A DNA stretch of 21,096 nt. It comes from a virus. The stretch spans positions 1 to 21,096 of the IMG/VR virus record IMGVR_UViG_3300027848_000117, one strand, 5' to 3'. Under the pieces are notes generated by a model, which worked only from the letters and a program-made list of their open reading frames with translations, had not been told where the DNA came from and did not search any database. This document shows positions 2,641 to 18,738 of the stretch, piece after piece; within the stretch, counting starts at the first letter, position 1, and each line of letters opens with the position of its first letter. Both the position numbers and the translations under genes were made by a program.

Positions 2641-2780
2641 GTGCCGCGCCAACTTTCTCGGAAGTTCGCTTCCGTGCAATGCGGGAACGTTTGGCAATTG
2701 TTGCCATGGTTTTGATGGCCGACGACCGCCTGCGTCTGGTTTCTTTTGGCCCGCGTGGCGGGTGGAGGTACACACCATGA
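2637..2780 (+). CDS. Small hypothetical protein (47 aa)
   Basis: Starts at ATG 2637, overlapping the previous stop by ATGA, and ends with TGA at 2778-2780, itself overlapping the next start by ATGA. The 47-residue product begins MSAAPTFSEVRFRAMRERL, has a short hydrophobic stretch (LAIVAMVLMA) and a basic Gly/Trp-containing end (GPRGGWRYTP). The coupling on both sides supports real translation. No family is recognised. The hydrophobic stretch is short for a membrane span. Confidence 0.6.
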   Translation: MSAAPTFSEVRFRAMRERLAIVAMVLMADDRLRLVSFGPRGGWRYTP

Positions 2781-3714: not shown

Positions 3715-3773
3715 CACACCCGGGCGGCGGCGTAACAGCCCCGCCCACCACCAACCCAACCGGAGCAACCGAC

Positions 3774-4445
3774 ATGAAAACCATCACACCCACACCGACA
3801 CCGACCACGTTTTTTCTGCCCGCCGATGACCTGCGCGCGGCGTTCCAGTGCATCAGCACCGAGGAAAGCCGCTACTATCTCGGCGGCGTGCTGATCGAAG
3901 CTGACAAGCTTGTGGCGCTGGACGGCCACCAGATGATCACAATTGATCTGCCGGACGGCTGCCACGTCGGCGCGGAATGTTTCACGCAAGGCATGGACGC
4001 GCCACGGATGCCCGGCGCTACAGGCACGCCTCAAGGCGCGGGGTTTATTCTGTCCTGTGACGCAACCGACAAGGCGTTCAAGTCTGGCGGCAAGGTGGGG
4101 GAACTTTGGGTTTACGGCGACATTGAAACCGGGATCCTGCAATTTGTGATCAACCACGGCAAGGCTGGCGAGATGTCCCGGACCGGCGTGCTGGAATTCG
4201 AGCGCATCGACGGCACGTTCCCGGAATGGCGGCGCGTGGTGGCCAAGGGTGACGGGGGCGCGTCCAGCATGTGCTACGATCCGACCGTGCTGGCGCGCCT
4301 TGTCAAGGCCGCTGACGTGATCGACAAGGGGCGGGCTGTCCGGCTGACCGGCGGTCAATCCGAAGGCGATCCGATCCGTGTGGATTTTGCAGCGTCTGCC
4401 CGCCTGCGCGGAACGCTTATGCCAACGCGGTGGACTGGCGCATGA
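3774..4445 (+). CDS. Sliding clamp-like protein (DNA polymerase III beta-related)
   Basis: A 223-aa protein from ATG 3774, with GGAG eight bases upstream; an upstream in-frame extension to 3684 is unlikely because it runs through the preceding gene. After a Thr/Pro-rich tail the segment EESRYYLGGVLIEADKLV then ALDGHQM closely matches the bacterial beta-clamp pattern 'ETRYYLNG..L......VATDGHRL'. The end (RGTLMPTRW) matches the clamp's terminal 'MPMR'. At 223 aa it is well short of the three-domain clamp (about 366 aa), as in other phage clamp-like proteins. The probable role is processivity for the family B polymerase encoded upstream. The assignment rests on these motifs only. Its stop overlaps the next ATG (ATGA). 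Confidence 0.62.
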   Translation: MKTITPTPTPTTFFLPADDLRAAFQCISTEESRYYLGGVLIEADKLVALDGHQMITIDLPDGCHVGAECFTQGMDAPRMPGATGTPQGAGFILSCDATDKAFKSGGKVGELWVYGDIETGILQFVINHGKAGEMSRTGVLEFERIDGTFPEWRRVVAKGDGGASSMCYDPTVLARLVKAADVIDKGRAVRLTGGQSEGDPIRVDFAASARLRGTLMPTRWTGA

Positions 4446-4624
4446 CCCTCAGAGACTGGCAAGCGCGGTGGGGCCACCACATCCCCGCGCAGGCTCTTGC
4501 CGAGTTGACGGCTATCTTGAGCCCCGTCATGCCCTCGCCCGCACCTACGGCCCGCCACAGTGAGGCTGCGGGGGCGGCACAGATACGTTTGGCGGCGGGC
4601 CGGGCCGGTGTGCCGCCGCGTTGA
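4442..4624 (+). pseudogene. Truncated N-terminal remnant of the VRR-NUC nuclease gene
   Basis: ATG at 4442 is coupled to the clamp gene by ATGA, and the frame stops after 60 codons. The last third, HSEAAGAAQIRLAAGRAGV, aligns residue for residue with the start of the VRR-NUC gene beyond the HNH gene (QSEAAVAAQIRILAGQRGI), then diverges into PPR and stop. The simplest reading is that this was the original N-terminus of the nuclease (about 37 leader residues plus the first conserved helix), cut off by insertion of the HNH cassette. It may still be translated as a 60-aa peptide. Third-position use here is very GC-rich, while the downstream duplicate of the same residues is much less so. Confidence 0.68.
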
Positions 4625-4649
4625 CACTTTGCGCCACGTCTGGTAAGAA
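4621..4649 (+). promoter_or_regulatory. Promoter-like sequence of the left HNH cassette
   Basis: A perfect TTGACA (4621-4626), 17-bp spacer, then TAAGAA (4644-4649). The -35 overlaps the stop codon of the truncated nuclease remnant. It lacks the spacer and leader of the three-copy promoter family, so it appears to belong to the HNH cassette. The predicted start, about 4656, falls inside the 5' arm of the hairpin at 4654-4685. Confidence 0.55.
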
Positions 4650-4653
4650 AAAG

Positions 4654-4685
4654 GGGCGGCGAGGTCTTCACACCTCAAGCCGCCC
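4654..4685 (-). terminator. Stem-loop: minus-strand intrinsic terminator and HNH 5' leader structure
   Basis: GGGCGGC (4654-4660) pairs with GCCGCCC (4679-4685), and GAGGT (4661-4665) with ACCTC (4672-4676), with a 2-base bulge and a 6-base loop. Read on the minus strand the stem is followed by CTTTTTCTT, a classical intrinsic terminator that would stop late transcription reading through the convergent junction. On the plus strand there is no U-tract; there it lies in the leader between the promoter and the HNH start. The A-run that supplies the minus-strand U-tract is next to the -10. Confidence 0.5.
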
Positions 4686-4709
4686 ACACCAGCGTTTAGG
4701 AGACGCCAG

Positions 4710-5222
4710 ATGCCCAGAAATATACGCCCGATCCGCGTTGAAGGCAATATTGCTTTCATTACTCTGACAAAGGGTTATGTCGCAATCATCGACGTTGACG
4801 ATGTTGAACGCGTCCAGTCCTTTTCATGGCGCGCGCTGGTTGTTCACAGTAATGTTTACGGGCAATGCAATTTTCCTAGAAATTCAGGACCGCGACCGTT
4901 TGCGTTACTGCACCGACTAATAATGAATGCACCAAAAGGTTTTGATGTAGATCATATTAATTGCAACAGCTTAGACAATCGAAAATCTAATATGCGAATT
5001 TGCACGCATTCTGAAAATCTGTGCAATCAGCGCACACGCAAAGGCACAGCATCACCATTAAAAGGTGCCTCTTTTGCAAAGTGTAAAACGCGATGGAGAG
5101 CGCGTATAGTGATACAAGGCGTTGAAATATCGCTCGGCCAGTTTGCTACAGAGCAGGAAGCACACGCAGCATATTGCACCGCAAGCGCAAAAATCCATAA
5201 AGACTTTGGGAGAACAAAATGA
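4710..5222 (+). CDS. HNH homing-type endonuclease with AP2 DNA-binding domain
   Basis: A 170-aa protein from ATG 4710, seven bases after TAGGAG. The central HNH_3-type motif is seen as H68 (LLHRLIM), D81-H82..N84..N86..D89-N90 and N94, then CTHSENL. The C-terminal segment 118-168 (SFAKCKTRWRARIVIQG, then SLGQFATEQEAHAAY) is an AP2-type DNA-binding domain. This pairing is typical of phage homing endonucleases, which cut a target site in a related genome so that repair copies their own gene. The gene is clearly AT-richer than its neighbours, a sign of separate origin. It lies within the VRR-NUC gene, has its own promoter-like sequence, and its TGA overlaps the restart ATG (ATGA, 5219-5222). Its last codons contain the Shine-Dalgarno TTGGGAG for that restart. 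Confidence 0.9.
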   Translation: MPRNIRPIRVEGNIAFITLTKGYVAIIDVDDVERVQSFSWRALVVHSNVYGQCNFPRNSGPRPFALLHRLIMNAPKGFDVDHINCNSLDNRKSNMRICTHSENLCNQRTRKGTASPLKGASFAKCKTRWRARIVIQGVEISLGQFATEQEAHAAYCTASAKIHKDFGRTK

Positions 5223-5635
5223 GTCAGTCGGAAGCTGCCGTTGCGGCACAAATCAGAATACTTGCGGGACAGCGCGGCATTGCCCTTTTTAGAAACAATT
5301 GTGGAGCCATGACCGACCAGACAGGCCGCCTGATCCGGTTCGGGCTTGGCAATGAATCGCCCGCCCTGAACGCGCGGTGGAAGTCGTCCGACCTGATCGG
5401 GGTGCTGCCCGTGGTGGTCCAGCCGTCACACGTTGGCAAAACGCTTGGGGTGTTCCTGGCCGTCGAGACTAAAAAGCCCGGATGGCACCTGACGCCCGGC
5501 GACAAGCGCGGCCATGCGCAAGCTGCGTTTATCCAGTCCGTCCGGGGTTTCGGCGGGGTCGGCGGGTTTTGTTGCACCGCTGACGATTTTTTAGGGTTGA
5601 CGCAAAGGATAATAGCGGGTAATTGTAAGTTATAG
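5219..5635 (+). CDS. VRR-NUC family nuclease (restarted copy)
   Basis: A 138-aa PD-(D/E)XK-type nuclease. The N-terminal helix is SEAAVAAQIR, followed by RNNCGAMTD; the catalytic core is D58 (SSDLIG) and E83-x-K85 (VETKKPG), with the conserved Q101 (HAQAAFI) and GFGGVGGF. VRR-NUC proteins in phages are commonly structure-specific nucleases, possibly for Holliday junctions or repair intermediates. The ATG at 5219 overlaps the HNH stop. The first roughly 25 codons repeat the residues of the upstream remnant in different, less GC-rich codons; from about 5310 the composition returns to that of the phage. The catalytic domain looks complete, so the gene is probably functional but lacks the original ~37-residue N-terminal leader. 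Promoter copy 3 lies within its 3' end. Confidence 0.85.
   Translation: MSQSEAAVAAQIRILAGQRGIALFRNNCGAMTDQTGRLIRFGLGNESPALNARWKSSDLIGVLPVVVQPSHVGKTLGVFLAVETKKPGWHLTPGDKRGHAQAAFIQSVRGFGGVGGFCCTADDFLGLTQRIIAGNCKL
5597..5625 (+). promoter_or_regulatory. Promoter copy 3 of a three-copy family
   Basis: TTGACG (5597-5602), 17-bp spacer, TAATTG (5620-5625). The spacer holds GATAATAGCGGG and the leader AGAAACGCAATCGG (5634-5647) differs by one base from that of copy 1. It overlaps the last codons of the nuclease gene and lies 32 bases before the ATG at 5658. Confidence 0.65.
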
Positions 5636-5657
5636 AAACGCAATCGGAGATACTGAC

Positions 5658-5834
5658 ATGACCGCACAAGAAGTAGACAATGTAATTGAGAAGGTCTCGG
5701 CACTGGTCGGCGGTGATGATCGCGGGTTGTTTGCTTGGGTTCTGCGCATGGCAGCAGATCAAGCGTCAAACACCGACGAGTTTTCGATCCTCGCAATGAA
5801 AATGCTTGAGAAAACTTACGGAATTTCCGCGTAA
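5658..5834 (+). CDS. Small hypothetical protein (58 aa)
   Basis: First gene after promoter copy 3; ATG at 5658 follows CGGAGA by eight bases. The 58-aa, mildly acidic product is predominantly helical (EVDNVIEKVSALVGG, then FAWVLRMAADQAS and SILAMKMLEKTYG). No known motif. It is followed directly by a strong hairpin (5841-5863) that could end or protect this short transcript. Confidence 0.62.
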   Translation: MTAQEVDNVIEKVSALVGGDDRGLFAWVLRMAADQASNTDEFSILAMKMLEKTYGISA

Positions 5835-5840
5835 ACCCTA

Positions 5841-5863
5841 GCCCCCGGCCACGCGCCGGGGGC
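5841..5863. terminator. GC-rich hairpin without U-tract
   Basis: GCCCCCGG (5841-5848) pairs perfectly with CCGGGGGC (5856-5863) around a 7-base loop, six bases after the stop of the 58-aa gene. Neither strand has a convincing T-run after the stem. It could attenuate transcription or mark an RNA end; a Rho-independent terminator in the strict sense is not supported. Confidence 0.4.
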
Positions 5864-5883
5864 CACCTCAAGGAATTAAAGCC

Positions 5884-6048
5884 ATGACCCACCCCAGATT
5901 TATCAACCTGCGCGACGGCGGCAATATGCCACCAGCCCGGCCCGGATTGATCCGCGCATGGATTGCAGACGTGATTGCTATTGCATGCCTTGCCGCTATC
6001 TTCCTGGCCGTGCCGTGGATCCTCTATGCGATTGGGGATTGGCTGTGA
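5884..6048 (+). CDS. Small single-pass membrane protein (54 aa)
   Basis: ATG at 5884 follows AAGGA by about ten bases. The 54-aa product has a charged, Pro-containing N-terminus (MTHPRFINLRDGG) and one long hydrophobic segment, about residues 28-50 (IADVIAIACLAAIFLAVPW), ending IGDWL. It is probably an inner-membrane protein with one span. Phage proteins of this kind may act in superinfection exclusion or host membrane change, but nothing specific shows it. Its TGA overlaps the next gene's GTG start (GTGA, 6045-6048). Confidence 0.65.
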   Translation: MTHPRFINLRDGGNMPPARPGLIRAWIADVIAIACLAAIFLAVPWILYAIGDWL

Positions 6049-6248
6049 CATATGACGCATGGCGACTGGCTGGACCGCCCGATGCCCCCGAAGTCGGCAC
6101 AAAGAACGGTGACACCTGCGGGCGCTGCGATGAACCCGACGAGGACGCGCCGCGCGGATACCGGCCCAAGCCCTGCGCCGGGACCATGCAATCTATTAGC
6201 GACGAGTGGCTGCGCTGCGATTGGTGCGGAGCGGGGGTAAAAATATGA
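6045..6248 (+). CDS. Small Cys-rich putative zinc-binding protein (67 aa)
   Basis: The GTG at 6045 overlaps the previous stop. The 67-aa product has a CxxC pair near the middle (C25-G-R-C28) and another near the end (C58-D-W-C61), with C44 between, as in a zinc ribbon. The loop between the pairs holds an acidic run (DEPDEDAPRG) and YRPKPCAG. No known family. Its TGA overlaps the next ATG (ATGA). It is one of two zinc-ribbon candidates at the end of the plus-strand region. Confidence 0.66.
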   Translation: MTYDAWRLAGPPDAPEVGTKNGDTCGRCDEPDEDAPRGYRPKPCAGTMQSISDEWLRCDWCGAGVKI

Positions 6249-6367
6249 GCGCCCGCCTTGGCCGCGACCTTGGCCCGCTGGCAACGATGCCAACCGATTT
6301 GCGCAATGCCCTGTATCGGCTGGCGCTGGAACTGCAACGCAACAAATGGAGGCAAGCAACATGCTGA
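6245..6367 (+). CDS. Very small hypothetical protein (40 aa)
   Basis: A 40-aa frame starting at ATG 6245 in an ATGA overlap and ending at TGA 6365-6367, seven bases into the next gene. It encodes one basic amphipathic helix (TDLRNALYRLALELQRNKW). Support is the overlap at both ends and the absence of any other gene here; the Shine-Dalgarno of the next gene (GGAGG) lies within it. Confidence 0.48.
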   Translation: MSARLGRDLGPLATMPTDLRNALYRLALELQRNKWRQATC

Positions 6368-6549
6368 CCTGTCCGACCTGCCCCGGTAGCCCAAAGTTGC
6401 AAATCGTTGAGACCAGGGGCCGGACCTATGGCGACACGATCACTGTCTGGCGCCGCAGGCGTTGTGCAACCTGTAAGGTTACACATTCCCGCACTATCGA
6501 AGTTCCGGCCGACTGGGCACATGATCTGTTCAGCGACGAAACATCCTGA
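6361..6549 (+). CDS. Zinc-ribbon protein resembling the NrdR N-terminal domain (62 aa)
   Basis: ATG at 6361 is preceded by GGAGG with seven bases spacing. The 62-aa product has C4-P-T-C7 and C35-A-T-C38 with a basic stretch WRRRRC just before the second pair and a short tail HSRTIEV. The order 'CPxC ... RRRxCxxC ... (F/S)RTxE' resembles the zinc ribbon of NrdR-type regulators and other phage nucleic-acid-binding ribbons. The ATP-cone that defines NrdR is absent, so it is not NrdR itself. It is the last plus-strand gene before the convergent late region. Confidence 0.68.
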   Translation: MLTCPTCPGSPKLQIVETRGRTYGDTITVWRRRRCATCKVTHSRTIEVPADWAHDLFSDETS

Positions 6550-6556
6550 GGATCTG

Positions 6557-6581
6557 GCGGGGTCAGATCACCTCGCCCCGC
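6557..6581. terminator. Weak stem-loop at the convergent junction
   Basis: GCGGGG (6557-6562) can pair with CCCCGC (6576-6581) around a 13-base loop, between the last plus-strand stop (6549) and across the last minus-strand stop (6563-6565). No U-tract is present on either strand. If termination occurs here it is probably weak or factor-dependent. The better minus-strand terminator candidate is at 4654-4685. Confidence 0.22.
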
Positions 6582-6763
6582 TTGCACGCAGCCGCAATCA
6601 GCACCACGGGCAACCCTTGCGCGGACTCTTGCAGCCACGCCTCGACCGGGCGGATCATCGCCACACAAGCGGCAGGCGTGCGCTCTGTGCGGATCACGGC
6701 CGTATGGCAGGCCACGGTCAGTGCATCTAGCCGTAGGAATATCGTGGCGGCTAGGATAATCAC
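6563..6763 (-). CDS. Hypothetical protein at the end of the lysis cassette (66 aa)
   Basis: A GTG start at 6763 overlaps the stop of the o-spanin candidate (GTGA), and the frame ends at 6563, 13 bases from the convergent plus-strand gene. The 66-aa product has a moderately hydrophobic N-terminus (IILAATIFLRLDALTVAC) and three Cys residues. It is not clearly a membrane or exported protein. The coupling supports it as the last gene of the late transcript, but the weak Shine-Dalgarno leaves doubt. Confidence 0.45.
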   Translation of the reverse strand: MIILAATIFLRLDALTVACHTAVIRTERTPAACVAMIRPVEAWLQESAQGLPVVLIAAACKRGEVI

Positions 6764-6957
6764 CGCGTGCCAGCGTCAAATTTGGCAATAACCGCCCGAC
6801 CGGCGCGCTTGGATTGCGGCCCCCCATCGACCACCAGCGCCCCGGCAAGATCGGCCATTGGTCCGCGCAGACCAGCTACGATCGCGCTATCGCTTGTCCT
6901 TGCGCTTGGACAGCCACTTAGTGTCATCATCAGGATCCCCGCGACCAATATCCGCAT
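6760..6957 (-). CDS. Lipoprotein, candidate o-spanin (Rz1-like)
   Basis: A 65-aa product from ATG 6957 with a typical lipoprotein signal: MRILVAGILMM then T-L-S-G-C, so lipidation at C16 is expected and the mature part is about 50 residues. The start lies inside the i-spanin candidate in another frame (71-base overlap), the arrangement of the Rz/Rz1 pair. Together the pair would join inner and outer membranes and fuse them in the final lysis step. The mature part is not Pro-rich as in lambda Rz1 and contains AGLRGPMADLAGAL, so assignment rests on lipobox and position. Confidence 0.68.
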   Translation of the reverse strand: MRILVAGILMMTLSGCPSARTSDSAIVAGLRGPMADLAGALVVDGGPQSKRAGRAVIAKFDAGTR

Positions 6958-7132
6958 TTTGCATTGCCTCCGTTGTCTTGCGATACGCCTCAGCAGCCTT
7001 CGCAGCCGCCTTAGCCTTGCCCGCCTGCGTGCCGTCTCGCTTGCCCATGACCCACGCGCCCCAAAGCAACACCGCGCCCGCTACAAGGCCCGCCATGGCC
7101 CGCTTTAGCCATGCGGGGATAAGCCACGTCAT
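6887..7132 (-). CDS. Candidate i-spanin (Rz-like)
   Basis: An 81-aa protein from ATG 7132, which overlaps the holin stop (ATGA); a longer frame to 7201 would run through the holin gene. One membrane span near the N-terminus (residues 11-29, AMAGLVAGAVLLWGAWVMG) is followed by a Lys/Ala-rich helix likely to form a coiled coil (GKAKAAAKAAEAYRKTTEAM) and a charged tail (DPDDDTKWLSKRKDKR). N-in/C-out topology with a periplasmic helix is what an i-spanin needs. The lipoprotein gene starts within its 3' half. Confidence 0.66.
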   Translation of the reverse strand: MTWLIPAWLKRAMAGLVAGAVLLWGAWVMGKRDGTQAGKAKAAAKAAEAYRKTTEAMQNADIGRGDPDDDTKWLSKRKDKR

Positions 7133-7329
7133 TTGCTTTGATCCCGAACGCGCAGCAATATCCCGCCAAGCGCAATCGCAGCAACGATCCACGGATGCCA
7201 ATCGGCAGGGATTTGCGTTTTAATGTCGTCTGGCAAGTCGGCCCAGACCATTGGCAGGACTGCCAACACGGCAAAAACCTGCGTAGAGTGCCAGCGCCAA
7301 GCGGCGTGCCAGTTTTGAACCATTTTCAT
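7129..7329 (-). CDS. Putative holin, two membrane segments
   Basis: A 66-aa protein from ATG 7329, overlapping the endolysin stop (ATGA). It has two hydrophobic segments: residues about 16-30 (STQVFAVLAVLPMVWADL) and 46-61 (WIVAAIALGGILLRV), with a short loop DDIKTQIPADWHP between them and a charged end RVRDQSK. This size and pattern, directly between the muramidase and the spanins, fits a class II type holin that permeabilises the inner membrane to release the endolysin. The 'VWADLP..IK..IP..WHPWI' segment resembles small phage holin-like proteins I recall from alphaproteobacterial phages. Confidence 0.72.
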   Translation of the reverse strand: MKMVQNWHAAWRWHSTQVFAVLAVLPMVWADLPDDIKTQIPADWHPWIVAAIALGGILLRVRDQSK

Positions 7330-8045
7330 GTTTTGCCCTTTCCAAAGATTGCAGCGATTGCCGCGAATAGGTTTGCCCAGAAGTTGACCTCTGGATTAGG
7401 TGGTGTAGGAACATGGTCAACCGGCTGCGTTAATGGTTCATCTGGTTGCCAAGGCGTATCTTTAATCCGCTGCCACTTGGCAAACGCCGCTGCCAGCTTA
7501 CGGTCATACCCGTTTTTGGCAAACCCTGGCCCGTTGTACCCACGCGCAAAGCCTGCCCAATCGTGGCGGCGCAATTCATCATCCAGCTTGTTTGCCTTGA
7601 TGAAAGCCATCATCGCCCGCAAATGCGTTTCCTCATCATCAAGAAACGCAGCAACCATAGCCCTCGCCGACGTATATCCCGCCGCCACATGGTTAAACCC
7701 CATCACCTGACCCAAGCCCCAAGAAGCTGATTGCAACGCGATTTCCTCATTTATCGCCATTGCCTTCACCAAGCGCGGGTAACTGTCGCGCGGATAGTCA
7801 CGTTTCCAACGGGGATACGCCAACCCGGCCCGCACAGCACGAACCCGTGCCTCCCCCGGCCCTAGAAGCCTGTAAAAGATATGCGGTTCAAACAGCATCT
7901 TTGGGCGGCCTTTGCTATCAAAGCCTGTTCCCGCCGATTCAACATCCAAAACCGCATGCACCTCATCCTCGCCAATGCCTAACGCCGCGCCCTCGCGGGG
8001 TAGGTCAATATCGTCCAGACGCTTGGCTCTGCCTTGGAAATTCAT
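7326..8045 (-). CDS. Endolysin, N-acetylmuramidase (DUF3380 type) with hydrophobic C-terminal tail
   Basis: A 239-aa protein from ATG 8045. The segment LDVESAGTGFDSKGRPKMLF then EPHIFYR is the signature of the DUF3380 N-acetylmuramidase family, with E36 the expected catalytic glutamate. Further family-like segments are ASWGLGQVMGFNH and FARGYNGPGF. It cleaves peptidoglycan. The catalytic domain covers about residues 20-190. It is followed by a Pro-rich linker and a hydrophobic amphipathic end (NFWANLFAAIAAIFGKGKT), which is unusual and might hold the enzyme at the membrane. The gene has a promoter-like sequence upstream and leads a coupled run endolysin-holin-i-spanin-o-spanin. Confidence 0.88.
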   Translation of the reverse strand: MNFQGRAKRLDDIDLPREGAALGIGEDEVHAVLDVESAGTGFDSKGRPKMLFEPHIFYRLLGPGEARVRAVRAGLAYPRWKRDYPRDSYPRLVKAMAINEEIALQSASWGLGQVMGFNHVAAGYTSARAMVAAFLDDEETHLRAMMAFIKANKLDDELRRHDWAGFARGYNGPGFAKNGYDRKLAAAFAKWQRIKDTPWQPDEPLTQPVDHVPTPPNPEVNFWANLFAAIAAIFGKGKT

Positions 8046-8075
8046 GTATTCCGCCCCTAACTTTGTCCACTGTGG

Positions 8076-8104
8076 TTAATACTAAAGCTTGGCTTGATTG
8101 TCAC
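8076..8104 (-). promoter_or_regulatory. Promoter-like sequence for the lysis genes
   Basis: On the minus strand GTGACA (8104-8099), 17-bp spacer and TATTAA (8081-8076) lie in the only sizeable gap of the lysis region, 8046-8100, just upstream of the endolysin. The -35 overlaps the stop codon of the gene before. It could allow separate expression of the lysis cassette. It differs from the three-copy plus-strand promoter family. Evidence is sequence match only. Confidence 0.42.
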
Positions 8105-8331
8105 TTAGCCATGCCCCTCAATATCGTTTTGATATCCGTGCTGATTTCATCAAGCCGTCTATCCATGCGGTCCCGGCTGTCTTTAGAAGCTTGCATGTCC
8201 TCCTTTCGCTGGCTCCAAAGCCGTTTAATATCGGCAGCGTTTGCAATCCCCCGCGATTCCAGCCTAATAAACCAAACAATCACGCCAATAGCTGCGGCGA
8301 TAATTGCCCAAAAGTCTCTCACTAATTCCAT
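8101..8331 (-). CDS. Membrane-anchored coiled-coil protein of the lysis region (76 aa)
   Basis: ATG at 8331 overlaps the previous stop (TGATG) and has AGGA six bases upstream; an extension to 8415 would run through the neighbouring gene. The 76-aa product starts with a membrane span (residues 7-22, FWAIIAAAIGVIVWFI) and continues as a charged helix rich in Arg/Asp (RKEDMQASKDSRDRMDRRLD then EISTDIKTILRG), probably a coiled coil. It resembles XhlA/DUF2730-type phage proteins found near holins and endolysins. It may assist the holin or act as an antiholin, but the precise job is unknown. Confidence 0.68.
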   Translation of the reverse strand: MELVRDFWAIIAAAIGVIVWFIRLESRGIANAADIKRLWSQRKEDMQASKDSRDRMDRRLDEISTDIKTILRGMAK

Positions 8332-8612
8332 CACATTCCTGCCCTTGCTAATGTTTTGCGGGCGGCCAAAACCTCCGCCGCCCATGCTTTGGCACAATGA
8401 TCTGGCTGAAACCAAAACAACCGATCAATCAAGTCCCGCCGCTTGGCCCATTTAGGGCAGGTCTGCCCGTCAATGAATGCCCGCGAGCTGAGGGTCTGGT
8501 ACATTGATCCGCCAAACACTGCAGCGTTAAGCACCCGGCTCCCCGCCGCGATAAGCATTTCCGCAAATCTGGCGAGAATATATAACGGGCGGTATAGGCG
8601 GGTGCGGGTCAT
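8331..8612 (-). CDS. Conserved phage protein near lysis genes, unknown function (93 aa)
   Basis: ATG at 8612 overlaps the previous gene's stop (ATGA, 8609-8612). The 93-aa, basic product has RLYRPLYILARFAEMLIAAG, then QTLSSRAFIDG and an end FWFQPDHCAKAW. From memory, small phage proteins with 'YRPLY... QTLSxRA... D...HC' occur beside endolysin genes; they have no established function. It lacks a full membrane span and a signal peptide. Confidence 0.62.
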   Translation of the reverse strand: MTRTRLYRPLYILARFAEMLIAAGSRVLNAAVFGGSMYQTLSSRAFIDGQTCPKWAKRRDLIDRLFWFQPDHCAKAWAAEVLAARKTLARAGM

Positions 8613-9133
8613 GGCCAGTAATCTGCATTCGTGGTGAAGTCCGGCGGGATTGGGTCCATGCCTTTTATTGCCTTGGCCGCGAATATAAACGCGCTCTGAT
8701 TATTCGCCGCCGCCTGCCCAAAGGCAAAACATGTCTGTGCATCCATCGGGGACAGCGTGTTATCCGCCGCAATCCATGCGAAGTCTGCGGCCCCCTGATG
8801 CCAGCGCATAAACCCGGAAGGCGCACCTGCACCAATTGCAAAGCCCGCCAGCGTTGCCGCCCCCGTAATGCGCGCAAGGCTGGATTGGTCGCAATCAAAG
8901 TCTTTGCCCGCAAAGGCAAAGGTTGATGTCATGCGGCGGTCGCGCTCGCGGTTTACTGCCGCGCGCAATTCCGCGACTGTCGGCCCCGGTGGCACGGTCA
9001 ATTTCATGCCGCCAGCAATCGCCTTTTGCACGCGCTGGTAGTCTTCATTCGCCGGGTCATTCGGCACGGACATAACCTGCTCGCCAATTGTGACCTGATA
9101 GCCGTTTTCGGTTTGTGTGATTTTATCCATCAT
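8609..9133 (-). CDS. DUF4376-like protein, putative tail fibre assembly chaperone
   Basis: A 174-aa protein from ATG 9133, chosen because it overlaps the tail fibre stop (ATGA) and has CGGAG eight bases upstream; a longer frame exists to 9166. The middle part (AELRAAVNRERDRRMTSTF then AGKDFDCDQSSLARITGAA) fits the DUF4376 pattern 'R......F.f.G..fd.d..s..rI.ga...A'. Followed by 'W.aaDN' (WIAADNTLSPMDA) it is typical of proteins encoded just after phage tail fibres. They are thought to help fibre folding or attachment. Placed directly after the tail fibre candidate, it fits this role. Confidence 0.72.
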   Translation of the reverse strand: MMDKITQTENGYQVTIGEQVMSVPNDPANEDYQRVQKAIAGGMKLTVPPGPTVAELRAAVNRERDRRMTSTFAFAGKDFDCDQSSLARITGAATLAGFAIGAGAPSGFMRWHQGAADFAWIAADNTLSPMDAQTCFAFGQAAANNQSAFIFAAKAIKGMDPIPPDFTTNADYWP

Positions 9134-14000: not shown

Positions 14001-14251
14001 TTCTCATTCGTCACCGTTGCGTCAATAAAGCGGCTAAGCTGTGAACTCAACGCGGCGATACTGACCACGGCGGCCAGTGCGCTTGCAGCCGCTACGGCCA
14101 AGCCCTTACCCATCCCGGAGAATGCACCTTGCGCGCGACCTGCGGATCCGCCAGCCCGATCACCGGCGCCCGCGAACTTGTCCAGATCACCGCTGGCCGT
14201 CCGAACTTCCCGGCTGTCAACCTGTAGCCCGACCGATGCCATATCATCCAT
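11012..14251 (-). CDS. Tape measure protein (1079 aa)
   Basis: The longest gene in the window. The N-terminus (SVGLQVDSREVRTASGDLDK) and the following Gly/Ala and helical segments, including ATGGAAGKSVADLN and LNDPVKGMAALAESGIQFTE, are typical of siphophage tape measure proteins. Hydrophobic stretches occur at about residues 50-68 and 315-375; a Gly-rich stretch lies at about 640-720. The protein sets tail length and is thought to be ejected with DNA. With the rule of about 0.15 nm per residue, the tail would be near 160 nm. ATG 14251 follows AGGGAG by eight bases; an alternative start is three codons in. A large open frame on the opposite strand is only a shadow. Confidence 0.93.
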   Translation of the reverse strand: MDDMASVGLQVDSREVRTASGDLDKFAGAGDRAGGSAGRAQGAFSGMGKGLAVAAASALAAVVSIAALSSQLSRFIDATVTNEKAQAQLAAAIASTGGAAGKSVADLNSHAAALQKVTNFGDEAINSMQALLLTFTNIKGDQFDAATLSTINLATAMGTDLKSAALQVGKALNDPVKGMAALAESGIQFTEAQKEMVKGMVEANDTIGAQTIILAELERQFGGSAEAARNTLGGALASLRNAFGDLFELSGPGSENLRASIERLTAAVANPAFFAAVQAIGTALFAAAEMGINALTMLLPVITAVVENIDIIGYSAGVAAAVFVGPYAVAMGAAVIATFSLTGALALLKTALIATGVGALIVGAGALIAMFGRLVTAVGGFGEAMSLLGDVAAAVFQGIIDSGAAVPPALNGVWALMKGGFLIALSGMATAFHDFIWTIANGMNGIEGMQAVGASLMGLAKGASDVSGTLHEAGADAQAAAQGSFTSAAATISSAFGPARDAVSALSDAVVVNAIETEGAVTAADQLNNSLGEMGGGAAGKAAKEIKKVATEAEAFNKAMTDAAGTAEDFGKKKAGILISGVDGISNAFGDFIAGGLQDFKGFVRSIVDSFKSMLSQMIAMAVKNRIMIGLGFSGGGIGGAGAALAGAAGGGGPLGILGSLGSGGGMLGSIGGVLGTIGSNFGAGFMTSVYGGLGGLTGAVSGGLSVGGLAGISTAIGAIAAPLLAVAAVFSFFKKKTKELDSGLRVTVRGMDTLVQTFRTIETKRFWGLSKKVRTSFQNASDEIANPLIKAIGEMQGGIVDSAEALGISAAVFDGFAHTLQVSTRGMSDEAAQKAVIDAFERMGDAFAGLIPGLQALQKDGEGAMAAITRLAQSLIVVNARMADLGLNTYTVSLAGAGAAAAFVDLFGSLENFNAVSQSYYQNFFTDAERLARATELLSIEMLALGINALPSTRAAFRALIDEADALGNTGLVASLMQLSPAFAEISAGADALGNSLRSLVNEDLFATGQDFARSLSRSSNSQLFTPRESDAELRAELRALNVSMERLVSTSEITAGNTGRGADAADDTLAFQLEQTL

Positions 14252-14256
14252 GCGGC

Positions 14257-14616
14257 TTACTCCCTAAACGGCTGCGGCGTGTTTTTGCCATTCGACTCAA
14301 ACAATTCACTTGCGTAAACCCCGCTCATTTTTTGCAGCCATTCCGCTTCATTACCATCAAACCTCAGCCCTATATTTGCGGCCCATGCCTGAATTTCTAA
14401 GTGGGATAGGGCCACCGACCCCATCCCGCCTTGCATTACCGGCCCGACATCCATCAGCCATTCCGCAAGATAAGCACGAAACGGCAATTCAGGAAAGTCC
14501 GCTTCTTCATTTGCCCGCTCCAAAAAACTCCAGCGTGAGTGCTTTATGTCCTTTGGCTGCGCGCATAACCAAGCGTGCTGACGTGCCCAGAGACAAAGCG
14601 CCTCTAGGCTTGTGCG
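14257..14616 (-). CDS. Frameshifted C-terminal half of the tail assembly chaperone (GT-like)
   Basis: This frame has no ATG or GTG suited for initiation before the conserved part (the first candidate is a TTG at 14523 lacking a spaced Shine-Dalgarno). It is open back to the slippery site at 14616-14622, in the -1 frame relative to the upstream chaperone. It adds 119 residues, starting RTSLEALCLWARQHAW and ending FESNGKNTPQPFRE, giving a 266-aa fusion. The region ALSHLEIQAWAANIGLRFD is typical of the 'T' part of tail assembly chaperones. Fusion products of this kind bind the tape measure protein and tube subunits during tail assembly. Stop is five bases before the tape measure ATG. Confidence 0.78.
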   Translation of the reverse strand, partial: RTSLEALCLWARQHAWLCAQPKDIKHSRWSFLERANEEADFPELPFRAYLAEWLMDVGPVMQGGMGSVALSHLEIQAWAANIGLRFDGNEAEWLQKMSGVYASELFESNGKNTPQPFRE

Positions 14617-15056
14617 AAAAAATTGGCCCGATCCTTCAAGAACTCAGTCACTTCGTCAAGAATCGACGGATATTTGCGGTAAATGGCAAACGCCGCGTCT
14701 TCGGAAAACTCTACCGGCTTGCCGTCAAGGCTCAGGTTTTCCCAGCCGATTGTCTGATCGACGGCAGCTTGGACGATACCCTCTTGACCTTCATCAATCA
14801 CCGCCCCGATCTGCGCCGGGCTCATTTTGGCAAAGTCCATTTTGCCGCCGCGCCGCTTCAGAATGTCGGTTGCGCGCTTGCGGGCTTTGGCTTTGGAAGC
14901 TGATGCGTCCATGCCGATCAGATTGATGCGCATAGGCTTGGTCGGATTGGGCACGCCGTTCTCGTCTGTGACGTATGCGGGCGCGTCGGTGCGAAGGTTG
15001 GTCAGGTGCAGCCAAGCGCCGTGCTCTGCCGCTGATACTGAGTCGAAGCAATCCAT
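14604..15056 (-). CDS. Tail assembly chaperone, unshifted form (G-like, 150 aa)
   Basis: ATG at 15056 follows AGGA by eight bases. The 150-aa product (MDCFDSVSAAEHGAWLHLTN at the start, KYPSILDEVTEFLKDRANFF near the end) lies between the major tail gene and the tape measure gene, where gpG-like chaperones are found. Its length is close to lambda gpG (about 140 aa). Three codons before its TAG is the slippery heptamer that would direct a fraction of ribosomes into the downstream frame. The TPTKPMRINLIGMDASASKA type N-terminal domain fits chaperones of alphaproteobacterial phages but I cannot name the exact family. Confidence 0.82.
   Translation of the reverse strand: MDCFDSVSAAEHGAWLHLTNLRTDAPAYVTDENGVPNPTKPMRINLIGMDASASKAKARKRATDILKRRGGKMDFAKMSPAQIGAVIDEGQEGIVQAAVDQTIGWENLSLDGKPVEFSEDAAFAIYRKYPSILDEVTEFLKDRANFFAQA
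14616..14622 (-). promoter_or_regulatory. -1 ribosomal frameshift slippery site, T TTT TTC
   Basis: On the minus strand the zero-frame codons read AAT TTT TTC GCA CAA GCC TAG. The heptamer T TTT TTC (14622-14616) fits X XXY YYZ exactly, so both tRNAs can re-pair after a one-base backward slip. The -1 frame then stays open for 119 codons to the tape measure gene. The TAG four codons beyond the slip may help by pausing. Confidence 0.78.
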
Positions 15057-15109
15057 GGTTTATATCCTGCGGTTTAGGTTAAAGTCGGGGGATGCGGTAA
15101 ACCACGCCT

Positions 15110-15133
15110 CACCCCCCTGGCCTGCGGGAGGTG
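15110..15133 (-). terminator. Hairpin between major tail and chaperone genes (attenuator candidate)
   Basis: In minus-strand RNA CACCUCCC pairs with GGGGGGUG (8 bp with one U-G pair, 8-base loop), starting six bases after the major tail stop in the 82-base gap 15057-15138. The G-U pair exists only in the minus-strand RNA, so the structure favours the late transcript. No U-tract follows, so it would reduce rather than end transcription, or protect the 3' end of the major tail mRNA. The abundant tube protein upstream and low-copy chaperone downstream fit such a step-down. Confidence 0.45.
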
Positions 15134-15138
15134 CAGGA

Positions 15139-15582
15139 TTACGGCGCGGCGACTTCCACATCGGCGCGCGTGAACTCAATATTGCAGCTTGCCATATTGA
15201 CCGACCCGACCGACTGGCCGCGCGGGAACGACATGACTTTGCCCATGATGTAACGGATCGACCCGTCGCTGCGGGTTTCGCGGAAGCTGATTTCGTCCTT
15301 GGACGCCAGCGCGGCAAGCAAGATAATCTGACCCGCATTGGCGGAATCATAGCCCAGCGGGACCGTGATCGAACCGTAGTTCAACTCGCCGTGAAACTTG
15401 TTTACGATGCCGGTTTTCAGCGGCGTGAACGTGACCGGCGAATATGCCGCGCCAAACTCGGGAACTTCAGAAACCTCCCCGACTTCGACAAACGACAGCG
15501 CAACGTATCCGGCTGCGTCAAATGTTGCGGGGGTGGCCGCCGAGACGGACAAAAACCCGCCGATGCCTTCAGTAAGTGCCAT
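15139..15582 (-). CDS. Major tail (tube) protein
   Basis: A 147-aa protein from ATG 15582, eight bases after AAAGGA. It starts MALTEGIGGFLSVSAATPAT, has EVGEVSEVPEFGAAYSPVTF and ends NIEFTRADVEVAAP. The 'G.V..vPeFG' and 'G.I..KFHGELNYGSI.VPL' segments are usual in short siphophage tail tube proteins. Size and position (after the terminator, before chaperone and tape measure) agree. It polymerises into the tail tube. It is separated from the next gene by an 82-base gap with a hairpin, so it is probably expressed at a higher level. Confidence 0.83.
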   Translation of the reverse strand: MALTEGIGGFLSVSAATPATFDAAGYVALSFVEVGEVSEVPEFGAAYSPVTFTPLKTGIVNKFHGELNYGSITVPLGYDSANAGQIILLAALASKDEISFRETRSDGSIRYIMGKVMSFPRGQSVGSVNMASCNIEFTRADVEVAAP

Positions 15583-15619
15583 GATAATTTCCTTTCAATG
15601 GCGTAGATAGGCGGGATGC

Positions 15620-15844
15620 CTATTTCAGAACCGGCAGAATGCCGTTGGTAAACTCGACAAAGACTTCACCGTCCGCGTCGGAGGCGTTGGCCACCGTGCC
15701 GGAATAGGTGACACCGTTGGGCATTGCAAAATGCAACACGTCGCCAGCCTTTGGTGTTTTGCCTTTGTAGATCATGGCGGGGGTTGTGCCAATCGGCGTG
15801 GGCATTGTAACGATGCGGGCGCCTGTGATCGGTTTGGCTTTCAT
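15620..15844 (-). CDS. Small beta-rich protein between tail terminator and tube genes (74 aa)
   Basis: The ATG at 15844, two bases after the tail terminator stop and ten after AAGGA, is preferred over an upstream in-frame start at 15877 lying inside that gene. The 74-aa product alternates hydrophobic and polar residues (TGARIVTMPTPIGTTPAMIY, then GDVLHFAMPNGVTYSGTV and EVFVEFTNGILPVLK), as in a small beta-barrel. No named family recognised. Gene order suggests a minor tail or tail-completion part, but a moron is also possible. Confidence 0.68.
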   Translation of the reverse strand: MKAKPITGARIVTMPTPIGTTPAMIYKGKTPKAGDVLHFAMPNGVTYSGTVANASDADGEVFVEFTNGILPVLK

Positions 15845-15846
15845 GG

Positions 15847-16284
15847 TTACGGTGTCCTTTGAAAGATTGCGCGGCAACGTATGGAAACGTTCTTGCGAAA
15901 GTACGCACCATCCATTCCGCCCGGTTGTGGGTCGCCCATTTCCGCCACCTGAATTTGACCGCTTCCGGCAGACAGTACCAGATCAATGGGGAATTGGTCA
16001 ATGATGCGCTGCGCCTGGTCGTCAGCCTCATCCTCGAACGTGCCCTCTTGCACAAACACCGCTACAAACAGCCGAACGACCATGCGGCTTGACTTGGACA
16101 AACCGAAACGCTCAGGAGGGGTAAAGGTAAAATATGCCAGCCAATAAGGGGGCTTAGGCGTGACATATTGCAATGACGGCGCGTCATAAACCCCCGGCGC
16201 GTTCTCGCCCCAAACGATAAGCGGGGCGGACGGCGTGGCGGCAAGGCGCGTGCGCAGCGCGTTTTTGATATCTTTGTGATTCAT
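15847..16284 (-). CDS. Tail terminator-like protein (DUF4128)
   Basis: A 145-aa protein from ATG 16284, which overlaps the previous stop (ATGA); an extension to 16335 would run into that gene. It has the tail terminator fold's order: N-terminal helix (IKNALRTRLAATP), then WGENAPGVYDAP, strands YWLAYFTFTPPERFGL and MVVRLFVAVFVQEGT, a helix with DEADDQAQRIIDQF, and a final strand (VSIRCRAIFQRTP). This is typical of DUF4128. Such proteins cap the tail tube and join it to the head. Confidence 0.75.
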   Translation of the reverse strand: MNHKDIKNALRTRLAATPSAPLIVWGENAPGVYDAPSLQYVTPKPPYWLAYFTFTPPERFGLSKSSRMVVRLFVAVFVQEGTFEDEADDQAQRIIDQFPIDLVLSAGSGQIQVAEMGDPQPGGMDGAYFRKNVSIRCRAIFQRTP

Positions 16285-16682
16285 CCTACGGCCGCCTTTG
16301 CTTTTGCAATAGATGCCCGCACAATCGCGGGCCATTGATCGACGGCGCCTTCAACAAAATGCGCGCCCGGGCGGCCCTCACGGCCGTTGTTGACTGCCGC
16401 CGCATATTCTGCCGTCCATGTGAATGTTGCCACGTCACCGCCCTTTATTCCGGCCGCTGCCATGATGTAAGATTCCGCGCCCTGCCCCGCCGCGCCACCA
16501 GCTACCGATGATGTCAGGCTGTTGCGCAACATGCCCGTGTCAACCGGCATGCGTCCGCCTTTGGCCTTTGGTGTTTGTGCCACAGCCACGACAGATTGAG
16601 TCGCGTCTTTCAGCACGGCGTCGATCCGGCGTTGTGTCTTTTTGGTCCACTGGTCCAAATTTGCAAAAGTGTATTTGACCAT
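16281..16682 (-). CDS. HK97 gp10-like neck/head-tail joining protein (133 aa)
   Basis: ATG at 16682 overlaps the head morphogenesis stop (TGATG) and has CGAGG upstream; a longer frame to 16886 is a shadow of the upstream gene. The 133-aa product contains KGGRMPVDTGMLRNSL, then FTWTAEYAAAVNNGREG and PGAHFVEGAVDQWP. 'VDTGxLRxSL ... Y...V..G ... FxxxAxxxW' is the HK97 gp10 pattern. Proteins of this family act at the head-tail junction. Confidence 0.83.
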   Translation of the reverse strand: MVKYTFANLDQWTKKTQRRIDAVLKDATQSVVAVAQTPKAKGGRMPVDTGMLRNSLTSSVAGGAAGQGAESYIMAAAGIKGGDVATFTWTAEYAAAVNNGREGRPGAHFVEGAVDQWPAIVRASIAKAKAAVG

Positions 16683-17719
16683 CAGGTCAACCTCGCAAAG
16701 AAGTTGATACGGGGCTCCATATAGCAGCGGCAATTCACAGTTTCCCCGGCAGGTGCCCCCATGGAAGTGTCGCCGGGATACATCATCTGAAACCCACCAA
16801 CCATGAACGCATCGCCCTGCCCCACAACCTGTCCGTCCGCGCCCGCGTGCGTCTCGCGCGTGCGGGCGTCGCCCGTGGAATCCCACGCCCGAACCACGTC
16901 CTCAGCCCGCACATCATTGTTCGGGTTTTCGATCAGTTGGTCCAGCGCCTCTTGCCGCCCAGCGTTCAAAGCCTTGAGCGTTTCGGTCCGGGCAATTGTT
17001 TCGCCACGCAACGCAAGCAGCCGGTCCGAATAACGCCCGGCGATACGGTCAATGTCCGCCTGCCCGACAGATTTGCCGTCCGCCATGGCCCGGCGCACGA
17101 TCCCATCAAAGCGTTTGTCGCGCCGCGTGCGCGTGAAATAATTTGCCATGCTGGCCGGGTCCGACAATTCGCCGCGCATAGATTGCACATAGCCCGCCTG
17201 CTTGCTGTGCAGCCCCACCAGCCCACCTTGCCGCGTACCGTTCACCATGCGCCCGCCGATGTCCAGCGCGGTCCTGCGCGGCCCTGCGCCCGCCTCCAGC
17301 CCCGTCCTGATGGTCTGGGCGATCAGGACGCGCGTGTCGTCTATCACCTCAGTCACCAGCCGGGATCCAAGATCCAGCGCGATCCGTTCTGCCCGCGCGT
17401 TCCGGCCGCCAAAGGATTGCACAACGCGACTGCCAACCGGTGCGCGGCGGGTGGCGTGTTGAAACGCGCCCATCTGATAATTGCCGCCAGCCGACAGCGC
17501 CGCGGTGATTGCTGTATCGGTGCGGAACAGATCGGCCGCATCAAACCGCAGCGCACGGAACGCCGCGTCAACATCACCGCGCGCAATGGCAGCTTCAAGC
17601 GCCGTCATATCTGCCTGGCTTTGGACCTGGCGCATGGCCGCGACAAACTCCGACCGGACGCCCGGCCAGGTATCATCCAGCAGCTTCAGGAACCTTAAAC
17701 GAGTGTCACGTGACGCCAA
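16682..17719 (-). CDS. SPP1 gp7-like (Mu F-like) head morphogenesis protein, restarted copy
   Basis: A 345-aa minor head protein. The C-terminal domain has ETIARTETLKALNAGRQEAL, AWDSTGDARTRETHAGADG and AGETVNCRCYM, the signature of the SPP1 gp7/Mu gpF family, thought to bind the portal and DNA during assembly. The frame opens with TTG 17719, six bases after the strong Shine-Dalgarno GGAGGG, and overlaps the 3' end of the HNH gene by 25 bases. The first codons (MASRDTRLRFLKLLDDTW) repeat the RDT-R motif of the remnant at 18538, in the same reading frame 819 bases away. The original start was therefore probably the ATG at 18538, with this TTG as replacement. Confidence 0.85.
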   Translation of the reverse strand: MASRDTRLRFLKLLDDTWPGVRSEFVAAMRQVQSQADMTALEAAIARGDVDAAFRALRFDAADLFRTDTAITAALSAGGNYQMGAFQHATRRAPVGSRVVQSFGGRNARAERIALDLGSRLVTEVIDDTRVLIAQTIRTGLEAGAGPRRTALDIGGRMVNGTRQGGLVGLHSKQAGYVQSMRGELSDPASMANYFTRTRRDKRFDGIVRRAMADGKSVGQADIDRIAGRYSDRLLALRGETIARTETLKALNAGRQEALDQLIENPNNDVRAEDVVRAWDSTGDARTRETHAGADGQVVGQGDAFMVGGFQMMYPGDTSMGAPAGETVNCRCYMEPRINFFARLT

Positions 17720-18402
17720 GTCTTGCCCTCCTGAATGTTGCGAATAGCCTTTCGTGTTACCCCAAAGTCTTTGGCAATACGTGAGGCTTCTGATTTACAC
17801 GATTGATACGCGTAAATAGCTTGGGTGTCATTAAGTTTAGAGTTACCGCCAGTCTCTCCACGGGCAAGCGTTTGGTCTATCAACTTGTCCGCCTCGTTTT
17901 CTTGCCGGGTCGCCCATCGCAAATGCCTTGGGTTGATGCACCCAGGGTTATGACAAATTTCAGGTGCATGTGCGGCAAAGTGAAAATCACTTGGTCTTGG
18001 CCGCCCCGAAAGCATCAGTACGACTCGACTTACGTTGGTTTGCTTCCCTTGCATTACTACTCTGGCATATCCGCCCGGATTTTTATTAAAAGGCCATTCA
18101 ATGCAACTGTCCGTTGCTGAACTCACTGCGGAATCGACAAACGACAGCGGGTCTCCTTCTTTTGCTCTACGTCTGGCAACGTGAGGTGAACCATTAACTT
18201 TCAATCTATAAGCATGTTTCCCACACAACCCGCCTTGCGTTATAGGGCCTGTGCAATCGTCAACACTGCACGGCGTCCTACCCGGTAACTTAACTTTGTC
18301 AGGATTGGCACGTCGCCATTGTGCGTAATGAGTATCACACCGACCTCTTGCGAGACGCTTCTTGCCGCAACCTTCAATTTCACATATTGTATGGGTAGCC
18401 AT
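17695..18402 (-). CDS. HNH homing-type endonuclease with paired zinc fingers
   Basis: A 235-aa protein from ATG 18402, seven bases after AAGGA. N-terminal: two zinc-finger-like repeats, C7-C12-C22-H25 and C45-C50-C60-H63, each with the pattern C-x4-C-x9-C-x2-H. Middle: HNH_3-like motif H145, N152, N157, H160, N169 (HNPGCINPRHLRWAT, then QEN). C-terminal: helix-turn-helix-like part (SEASRIAKDFGVTRKAIRNI) ending EGKTWRHVTLV, common in HNH and NUMOD homing enzymes. It would cut a related phage's head gene and be copied in. The gene is AT-richer than neighbours. It has a promoter-like sequence in the remnant upstream and overlaps the restarted head gene. It is unrelated to the HNH-AP2 enzyme at 4710 beyond the HNH core. 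Confidence 0.9.
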   Translation of the reverse strand: MATHTICEIEGCGKKRLARGRCDTHYAQWRRANPDKVKLPGRTPCSVDDCTGPITQGGLCGKHAYRLKVNGSPHVARRRAKEGDPLSFVDSAVSSATDSCIEWPFNKNPGGYARVVMQGKQTNVSRVVLMLSGRPRPSDFHFAAHAPEICHNPGCINPRHLRWATRQENEADKLIDQTLARGETGGNSKLNDTQAIYAYQSCKSEASRIAKDFGVTRKAIRNIQEGKTWRHVTLV

Positions 18403-18431
18403 TTTTGATCCTTTCCCGATCAGATTGGTTA

Positions 18432-18465
18432 GGGCCAGCCGGTGCTGATACACTGTGTCTGGCCC
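18432..18465 (-). promoter_or_regulatory. Hairpin in the leader of the right HNH cassette
   Basis: On the minus strand GGGCCAG (18465-18459) pairs with CTGGCCC (18438-18432) in a perfect 7-bp stem with a 20-base loop. The predicted start of the local promoter (about 18463) lies inside the 5' arm, so the full hairpin would form in read-through transcripts but not in local ones. A second small stem (TGATC/GATCA) surrounds the Shine-Dalgarno of the HNH gene. Confidence 0.45.
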
Positions 18466-18469
18466 AAAC

Positions 18470-18498
18470 ATTTTACACTACATCCCTTGGCAAGCCAA
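18470..18498 (-). promoter_or_regulatory. Promoter-like sequence of the right HNH cassette
   Basis: On the minus strand TTGGCT (18498-18493), 17-bp spacer and TAAAAT (18475-18470). The -10 overlaps the stop codon (TAA, 18475-18473) of the truncated head-gene remnant, as the left cassette's -35 overlaps its remnant's stop. The -35 is part of an inverted repeat CTTGGC-TT-GCCAAG. Confidence 0.45.
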
Positions 18499-18538
18499 GA
18501 TCGAATTCATTGGAACGTTGGGTGTCACGGGTTGTCAT
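18473..18538 (-). pseudogene. Truncated N-terminal remnant of the head morphogenesis gene
   Basis: ATG at 18538 overlaps the preceding stop (TAATG) as a coupled gene should. The frame reads MTTRDTQRSNEFDLGLPRDV and one more Val before TAA, 21 residues. 'RDTQR' matches 'RDTRLR' at the start of the restarted head gene, with CGTGACAC identical in both DNAs (18529-18522 and 17710-17703), and GTTCC-TGAA follows in both. The two frames are the same modulo three. The most likely reading is that this is the original start of the head gene, cut off by the HNH cassette. Confidence 0.58.
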
Positions 18539-18738
18539 TAGTAATTCACCGTTGCAAGACAAAGATCAATCGCTTCCTCAGGCGTGAAGCCCTGCCCGAT
18601 ACTGGCATTGTAATGCAGGCGGCGCATCTTTGCCAGCAGTTCCGCCTTGCGGGCTTCAAGCGGTATGGCGGCATGCGCTGCGGCAAACAGCGCCTCGGTG
18701 TTGGCTGCGTCCATCATGCGCTTGGCGGCGTCGTTCAT
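18538..18738 (-). CDS. Small helical hypothetical protein (66 aa)
   Basis: ATG at 18738 overlaps the previous stop (ATGA). The 66-aa product is almost wholly helical and Ala-rich (AAKRMMDAANTEALFAAAHA, then EARKAELLAKMRRLHY) with a segment ASIGQGFTPEEAIDLC. No known motif. It is last in a run of four coupled genes starting with the collagen-like fibre and may be a partner of the fibre products or a structural small protein of the head. Confidence 0.62.
   Translation of the reverse strand: MNDAAKRMMDAANTEALFAAAHAAIPLEARKAELLAKMRRLHYNASIGQGFTPEEAIDLCLATVNY

Follow-up and report, generated by a model that had tools for sequence, protein, structure and literature searches.

HNH endonuclease genes between the stubs and restarts of phage genes, and the same layout around non-HNH genes in sister phages

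Endonuclease genes that come with diverged replacements for the ends of other genes are already known from fungal mitochondria, where the replacement is on the C-terminal side (PMC3630166). Mitochondrial elements termed mORFs are associated there with gene hybrids, in atp6 of Allomyces and in atp6, atp9, cox2 and nad3 of Glomus. The two end copies of Glomus atp6 have 63.5% nucleotide identity, versus 91% between the native copy and that of a relative (PMC3630166). Among T-even phages, the seg and mob genes include cases of split genes, such as mobE in nrdA of Aeh1 and mobA in gene 60 of T4 (PMC2988022). The present analysis concerns IMG/VR virus record IMGVR_UViG_3300027848_000117, in which a VRR-NUC nuclease gene and a Mu-F-like head morphogenesis gene are each interrupted by an HNH gene (HNH1 and HNH2, respectively). 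In both cases a stub of the gene start precedes the HNH gene, and a restart of the same gene overlaps its 3′ end. These arrangements are termed cassette 1 and cassette 2, and the window denotes the entire record of 21,096 bases (GC 58%), probably a fragment of a larger genome. From their sequences, HNH1 and HNH2 are read as free-standing homing-type nucleases.

Cassette 1 resembles the mitochondrial mORFs in that an endonuclease gene lies in coding sequence, accompanied by a foreign, diverged version of the gene end that it displaced and by a native stub. In the mitochondrial cases the replaced end is the C-terminal one and the endonuclease follows the hybrid; cassette 1 has a replaced start, and its hybrid follows the endonuclease. 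The C-terminal form does not occur in the window but is resembled by a locus from another phage (L218, below), and in cassette 2 a foreign end copy of the mitochondrial type would amount to 8 bases only. The T-even homing genes and the window, the latter known by sequence alone, appear alike in having a nuclease gene between or inside essential genes, coupling by overlaps, hairpins that sequester the ribosome-binding site, and co-converted flanks. The nrdA gene of Aeh1 is, as reviewed, split into two coding regions (PMC2988022), whereas in the window the lost codons are supplied again.

Small extra genes with their own promoter that lie between phage genes and are shuffled among relatives are termed morons or promoter early stem-loop (PeSL) cassettes (the latter cited through PMC4503421). 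Passages of two further papers place HNH genes where genetic exchange has its borders (PMC10448857) and, in Skunavirus, at places of repeated insertion (PMC12724721); the passages of both that a term search finds do not describe a re-supplied gene start. A sequence-only reading of the window had taken the re-supplied, diverged start, present twice in one genome, to be what seems new. It is of a kind known from fungal mitochondria (PMC3630166), but a phage case on the N-terminal side, and the same anatomy around non-nuclease genes, were not found described in a non-exhaustive search of the open-access literature.

The two HNH cassettes of the window

The sequence-only reading had proposed two independent HNH insertions of one design: a coupled, truncated gene remnant, a promoter-like sequence with a 17-bp spacer overlapping the remnant's stop codon, a GC hairpin, an AT-rich HNH gene, a Shine-Dalgarno (SD) sequence within the HNH 3′ end, and a restart that repeats the lost residues. 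These features can be compared with sister contigs (L-numbered loci), a dense set gathered by searches with the genes neighbouring the HNH genes; several of the contigs overlap or duplicate one another, and event counts were merged accordingly. In sister contigs the VRR-NUC gene is uninterrupted, has ∼170 codons and lies behind a clamp-like gene (about 22 intact copies were compared). Mu-F, which starts ATGACAACCCGCGACAC... in relatives, is uninterrupted in about 69 loci, often directly behind g66, a gene of 66 amino acids. Both HNH genes are therefore true insertions. They lie outside any intron or intein: the stop codon of the stub precedes the HNH gene and the interrupted gene restarts after it, and the window has no Rfam match at E values up to 1.

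In cassette 1, the stop codon of a gene for a sliding-clamp or processivity-factor-like protein (3765..4445, plus strand; matches to PHROG 947/3007 and synteny in close relatives) overlaps the ATG of the stub, as ATGA. The stub (4442..4624, plus strand) represents codons 1–58 of the VRR-NUC gene and is native, its amino acid identity to the same part of the intact sister-phage gene being 82–97%; this identity runs to GTGTGCCG and is lost after it. Among public phages the 60-amino-acid stub product has no match. The TGA of the stub lies within the −35 element of a promoter-like TTGACA-17-TAAGAA (4621..4649, plus strand; TTGACA at 4621–4626 and TAAGAA at 4644–4649), the −10 element of which fits in only three of six positions. 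Here and in cassette 2, promoter-like sites and SDs are readings of the sequence. The HNH1 leader contains a GC-rich hairpin of 12 pairs (4654..4685, plus strand); the leader with its hairpin (−28.7 kcal/mol) is more stable than 200 of 200 shuffles (z −3.8). HNH1 itself (4710..5222, plus strand; GC 45%) is an AP2-type HNH endonuclease with matches to PF13392 (7.9e-8) and PHROG 99 (2e-34), an AP2 match below cut-off, and an HNH motif that is kept in alignment A1. A putative SD, GGGAG, and then ATG 5219 begin the restarted VRR-NUC gene (5219..5635, plus strand; phrog_93 endonuclease, 1.9e-8; tblastn to intact relatives).

Stub and restart of cassette 1 repeat ∼20 codons (SEAAGAAQIRLAAGRAGV and SEAAVAAQIRILAGQRGI), with a score of 55 versus a median of 17 for 78 HNH loci of other phages. 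Over the first 72 bases after its start codon, the restart is only 54–71% identical to whichever of 22 relatives matches it best (mean 47–63%). The next 24 bases are mixed (0.88 best and 0.71 mean identity), and beyond the first 96 bases the best match reaches 92–100% in nearly all windows of the comparison. The intact relatives are ∼97% identical to their own nearest neighbour along the whole VRR-NUC gene. As the start of the restart is foreign, its remainder abruptly native and the stub native, the simplest account is that HNH1 arrived with the donor's nuclease-domain start. The restart would thus be a chimaera, its first ∼30 codons derived from a foreign VRR-NUC gene and carried in with HNH1; by identity to the 22 relatives, the foreign tract spans 5228..5320 (plus strand), the right-hand edge being approximate. 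Such an origin would explain why the re-supplied start is diverged.

Cassette 2 lies on the minus strand. The stop codon of g66 (18538..18738; adjoining Mu-F in many relatives, and with a single marginal match among public phages) overlaps the stub start as TAATG. The stub (18473..18538) consists of the first six Mu-F codons (ATGACAACCCGTGACACC), in which 19 of 19 bases are identical to the Mu-F starts of L101 and L111, followed by 45 bases without assignment and TAA. Over this TAA lies the −10 element of a promoter-like TTGGCT-17-TAAAAT (18470..18498; TTGGCT at 18498–18493 and TAAAAT at 18475–18470). The HNH2 leader (18403..18475; z −2.3) has two hairpins, one with the 7-bp stem GGGCCAG/CTGGCCC and one at the ribosome site. 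HNH2 (17695..18402; alignment A2) starts at ATG 18402 and appears to be a zinc-finger/HNH/HTH (helix-turn-helix) endonuclease, by a match to PHROG 59 (2e-19) and matches to PF05551 (7.4e-5) and PF13392 (2e-4) that are both below cut-off. Its body has a GC content of 49%. For both HNH proteins, many further PHROG matches are to endonucleases.

The restart of Mu-F (16682..17719, minus strand; PF04233, 5.6e-11; PHROG 3517, 8e-91) begins inside HNH2. AGGAGG, read as its SD, and the start codon TTG 17719 belong to the final codons of HNH2 itself (...EGKTWRHV); the W of this stretch is invariant, and the adjoining residues recur among family members. From about codon 10 onward the window's Mu-F is native, and GACACT is shared ahead of that codon. 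Only 8 bases (CGTGACAC), encoding RDT, are re-supplied, which is visible only against intact relatives; the direct stub/restart score, 19, is not above chance. The possibility that this restart is also a foreign, diverged copy was dropped, the repeated bases being CGTGACAC and the SD and start lying in HNH2's own codons. The succession of features that had been described holds for both cassettes, two independent insertions of different AT-rich HNH genes, but the repeat of lost residues stands for cassette 1 and shrinks to three residues in cassette 2.

Stubs and restarts around other genes

The same stub, insert and restart layout is found in sister phages around genes that are not HNH genes. 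The Mu-F start is duplicated before small non-HNH genes in L051, L071-73 and L099/L100, and partially in L108; the restart of L072 (ATGACCAGCCGTGATACC) has likewise diverged from its stub. In L094 a Mu-F stub, ATGACAACCCGCGACACTCGCAAAGCG, joins g66 at AAGCG, a 5-base sequence shared at this left joint. A third gene, HTERP (window 2762..2971, plus strand), is uninterrupted in the window, but in L011/L012 and L004 it bears such insertions: a stub, TTGAC-17-TAATAA directly after it, a gene for 70 or 61 amino acids, and a restart. The L011 promoter is placed as in cassette 1, its TTGACA likewise including the TGA of the stub. No HNH family match was found in the non-HNH Mu-F and HTERP inserts. Because some contigs overlap or repeat one another, the clear non-HNH events in the family are counted as six (L051; L071-73; L099/100; L094; L011/12; L004) versus two HNH events. 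With at least six non-HNH insertions of this design, of which two have a promoter directly behind the stub, a strategy of homing genes is not supported, and the refutation test set by the sequence-only reading, on whether remnant/restart overlaps are commoner around HNH genes than around other inserts, comes out largely against that reading.

Among the family loci the promoter pattern occurs 12 times in sense and not at all in antisense orientation, with 0.2 expected, although not all 12 are independent, since loci overlap. TTGAC-N16-18-TAATAA, together with a similar leader (GGAGA, ATG), recurs before different small genes, at window position 2352 and in L003, L004, L006, L007, L011, L012 and L016. 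The inserts of L011, L004 and L108, each a small gene with its own promoter that is absent in relatives, resemble moron-type cassettes in sequence pattern. To our knowledge, the definition of morons or PeSL cassettes does not include a downstream gene whose start is duplicated as stub and restart. The two HNH cassettes have stronger leader hairpins than the plain inserts. At two other places (L006:4931-5000 and L127:2500-2570), stubs of the HTERP start run into the leaders of other genes; in L006 the joint precedes the clamp-like gene and has CGCCGCCCAC-like bases in common.

Outside the family, 80 AP2-HNH loci from IMG/VR were surveyed, of which 78 were testable. A re-supplied start was found in one of the 78 (L224), and a re-supplied end in one (L218). 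In L224 (2440-3010), the AP2-HNH gene lies seven codons into a gene, whose stub reads LDYTFVEYF before its stop codon and whose restart reads MDYTFVEGTL...; the restart uses synonymously different codons. The start of the interrupted gene appears to resemble a DNA polymerase exonuclease domain. In L218 (2402-3046), DEEDQLKYEALCRLVL ends the upstream gene and again ends the HNH open reading frame, which repeats the final 16 residues of that gene and so forms a C-terminal counterpart of cassette 1. Scores of 30 or more were reached by 2 of 78 HNH loci versus 20 of 396 control genes of the same loci, no excess of high scores for HNH, in a comparison that has little power for short stubs. Survey matches such as L197, L181 and L184 look like chance.

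Possible routes of insertion

Both cassettes are likely to be products of this phage family's ordinary gene uptake, which would not be specific to HNH genes: the same layout around ordinary small genes in sister phages points to a general uptake route rather than a homing-gene trick. A DNA fragment from a related phage, on which an extra gene immediately precedes gene G, would recombine with the resident genome. On the left, an illegitimate joint would form where a few bases match, at or within the 5′ end of resident G; on the right, the joint would be homologous and lie further inside G. The outcome would be, in order, a stub of native G sequence, the incoming gene, and a G restarted with the donor's first codons and continuing into its native remainder. 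With one illegitimate and one homologous joint, the gene start is duplicated whatever the cargo, and only the joint needed to keep the gene alive is homologous. Downstream expression would be kept by coupled overlaps (TAATG, ATGA), by ribosome sites in the 3′ end of the insert and often by a promoter within it. HNH cutting may initiate such events or raise their frequency, but would not be needed for the anatomy. The scheme draws direct support from the empty sites, the native stubs, the cassette 1 chimaera, the non-HNH inserts of the same design and the 5-base joint of L094. The layout of cassette 1 agrees with two joints, and the L094 joint suggests the same.

Several points weigh against this explanation. 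In a donor of cassette 1, a relative of HNH1 would be expected immediately before a VRR-NUC gene that begins MSQSEAAVAAQIRILAGQRG; a single-protein search of IMG/VR gave no such donor (indeed, no HNH1 relative at all), and VRR-NUC adjoins none of the 80 AP2-HNH loci. The left joint of cassette 1 is not readable without the donor sequence. Cassette 1 sits ∼58 codons into its gene, beyond any non-HNH stub (these reach ∼25 codons at most), and nuclease cutting may therefore matter there. In addition, the count of six events versus two has no denominator for inserts that arrive without a stub.

Intronless homing would be a special case of the uptake route, with the nuclease making the break. The target of HNH1 (and HNH2) would be an uninterrupted VRR-NUC or Mu-F gene in a second phage infecting the same cell; once it is cut, repair would copy the HNH gene with donor flank, replacing the gene start. 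That the foreign tract lies directly 3′ of HNH1 and breaks off ∼100 bases into the gene fits co-conversion as known from T4 (PMC2988022), and L224 and L218 are HNH loci in other phages with duplicated neighbour-gene ends. Yet non-HNH inserts share the anatomy, and the HNH2-type genes of L067 and L084 lie at a gene junction without a stub; homing here is possible, if somewhat doubtful. The sequence-only reading's own explanation was that free-standing homing genes have a special strategy of splitting and restarting genes, reached twice by convergence. It would account for the order, coupling, promoter-like sites, hairpins and SD within the HNH 3′ end that the cassettes share, and L224 adds a third case; but with the identical order present without HNH in sister phages, its rarity among the 78 HNH loci and only 8 bases repeated in cassette 2, it is improbable.

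Two further possibilities concern the duplicated starts. The cassette 1 stub might be translated as an N-terminal subunit (a MTLRDWQARWGHH... domain) that acts in trans with the restarted nuclease domain, with the split nrdA of Aeh1 as precedent (PMC2988022). The foreign start lacks a 39-residue N-terminal part that is kept in 22 of 22 relatives and for which the homologue of Edwardsiella phage PVN06 has an equally long stretch. This part remains on the stub, which is coupled and has mostly synonymous changes (13.7 synonymous and 5.5 nonsynonymous codons on average for the stub; relaxation is not indicated). However, the insertion may be too recent for decay, and relatives compared pairwise show similar change, and a gene functioning in pieces is considered rather unlikely. 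Local tandem duplication of the gene start at insertion, with one copy then diverging, explains the flanking repeat without a donor, but it is very hard to reconcile with a divergence that stops within ∼25 bases in cassette 1 while the stub stays native, and that hits synonymous and nonsynonymous positions alike (about 21 of 27 codons).

To return to uptake by two joints, it is tentatively suggested, at somewhat under even chances, that phages in general gain genes by such a nuclease-independent route, in which extra genes enter core genes at or inside the 5′ end, since the incoming fragment brings a working downstream start, and stubs are left as coupling mini-open reading frames. If so, past gene gains in phage genomes, and their donors, could be read from the stubs. 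Uptake by two joints gives a concrete, testable account of gene addition in dense overlapping operons without loss of function. Cassette 1 mirrors, in a prokaryotic virus, the endonuclease-borne gene-end replacement of fungal mitochondria. The non-HNH inserts also carry a warning that homing is not diagnosed by stub and restart anatomy alone.

HNH2-type leaders and other features of the window

Three HNH2-type cassettes are present in this phage family, and a stub is found in only one. In L067 and L084 the HNH2-type gene lies precisely between Mu-F and the next gene. Their leaders are 90–97% identical to the HNH2 leader, while the HNH bodies have diverged; of the cassette 2 promoter-like site, only the GTAAAATG part is retained. 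The leader of ∼80 bases (L067:3525-3610, L084:2350-2435, window 18475-18396) stands, nearly identical and at two distinct sites of insertion, above genes for HNH proteins that share only 29–38% of residues with HNH2, so that different HNH bodies seem interchangeable beneath a fixed leader. In the ribosome-site hairpin, TGATC/GATCA becomes TGAAC/GTTCA in L084 with pairing kept, among three sequences only. By analogy with T4, where homing genes are restrained by hairpins in a similar way (PMC2988022), the leader hairpins of the HNH genes probably limit translation. The leader as a widespread mobile element was considered and dropped, its core being present in only two other IMG/VR contigs. A single-protein scan of IMG/VR with HNH2 found two distant relatives.

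The window contains the clamp-like and VRR-NUC genes, a putative DNA polymerase-like gene and a minus-strand head/tail module, with one HNH gene in each module. In six contigs (L144-L149; identical in the three compared), the last ∼80 codons of the VRR-NUC gene follow AT-rich, apparently unrelated sequence, a junction that reflects either real transfer or an assembly artefact. Upstream of g66, at 19920-21089, is a long collagen-like protein of GPxGPx repeats. Mu-F may border a variable host-recognition module, in which case the Mu-F start would be a recombination border.

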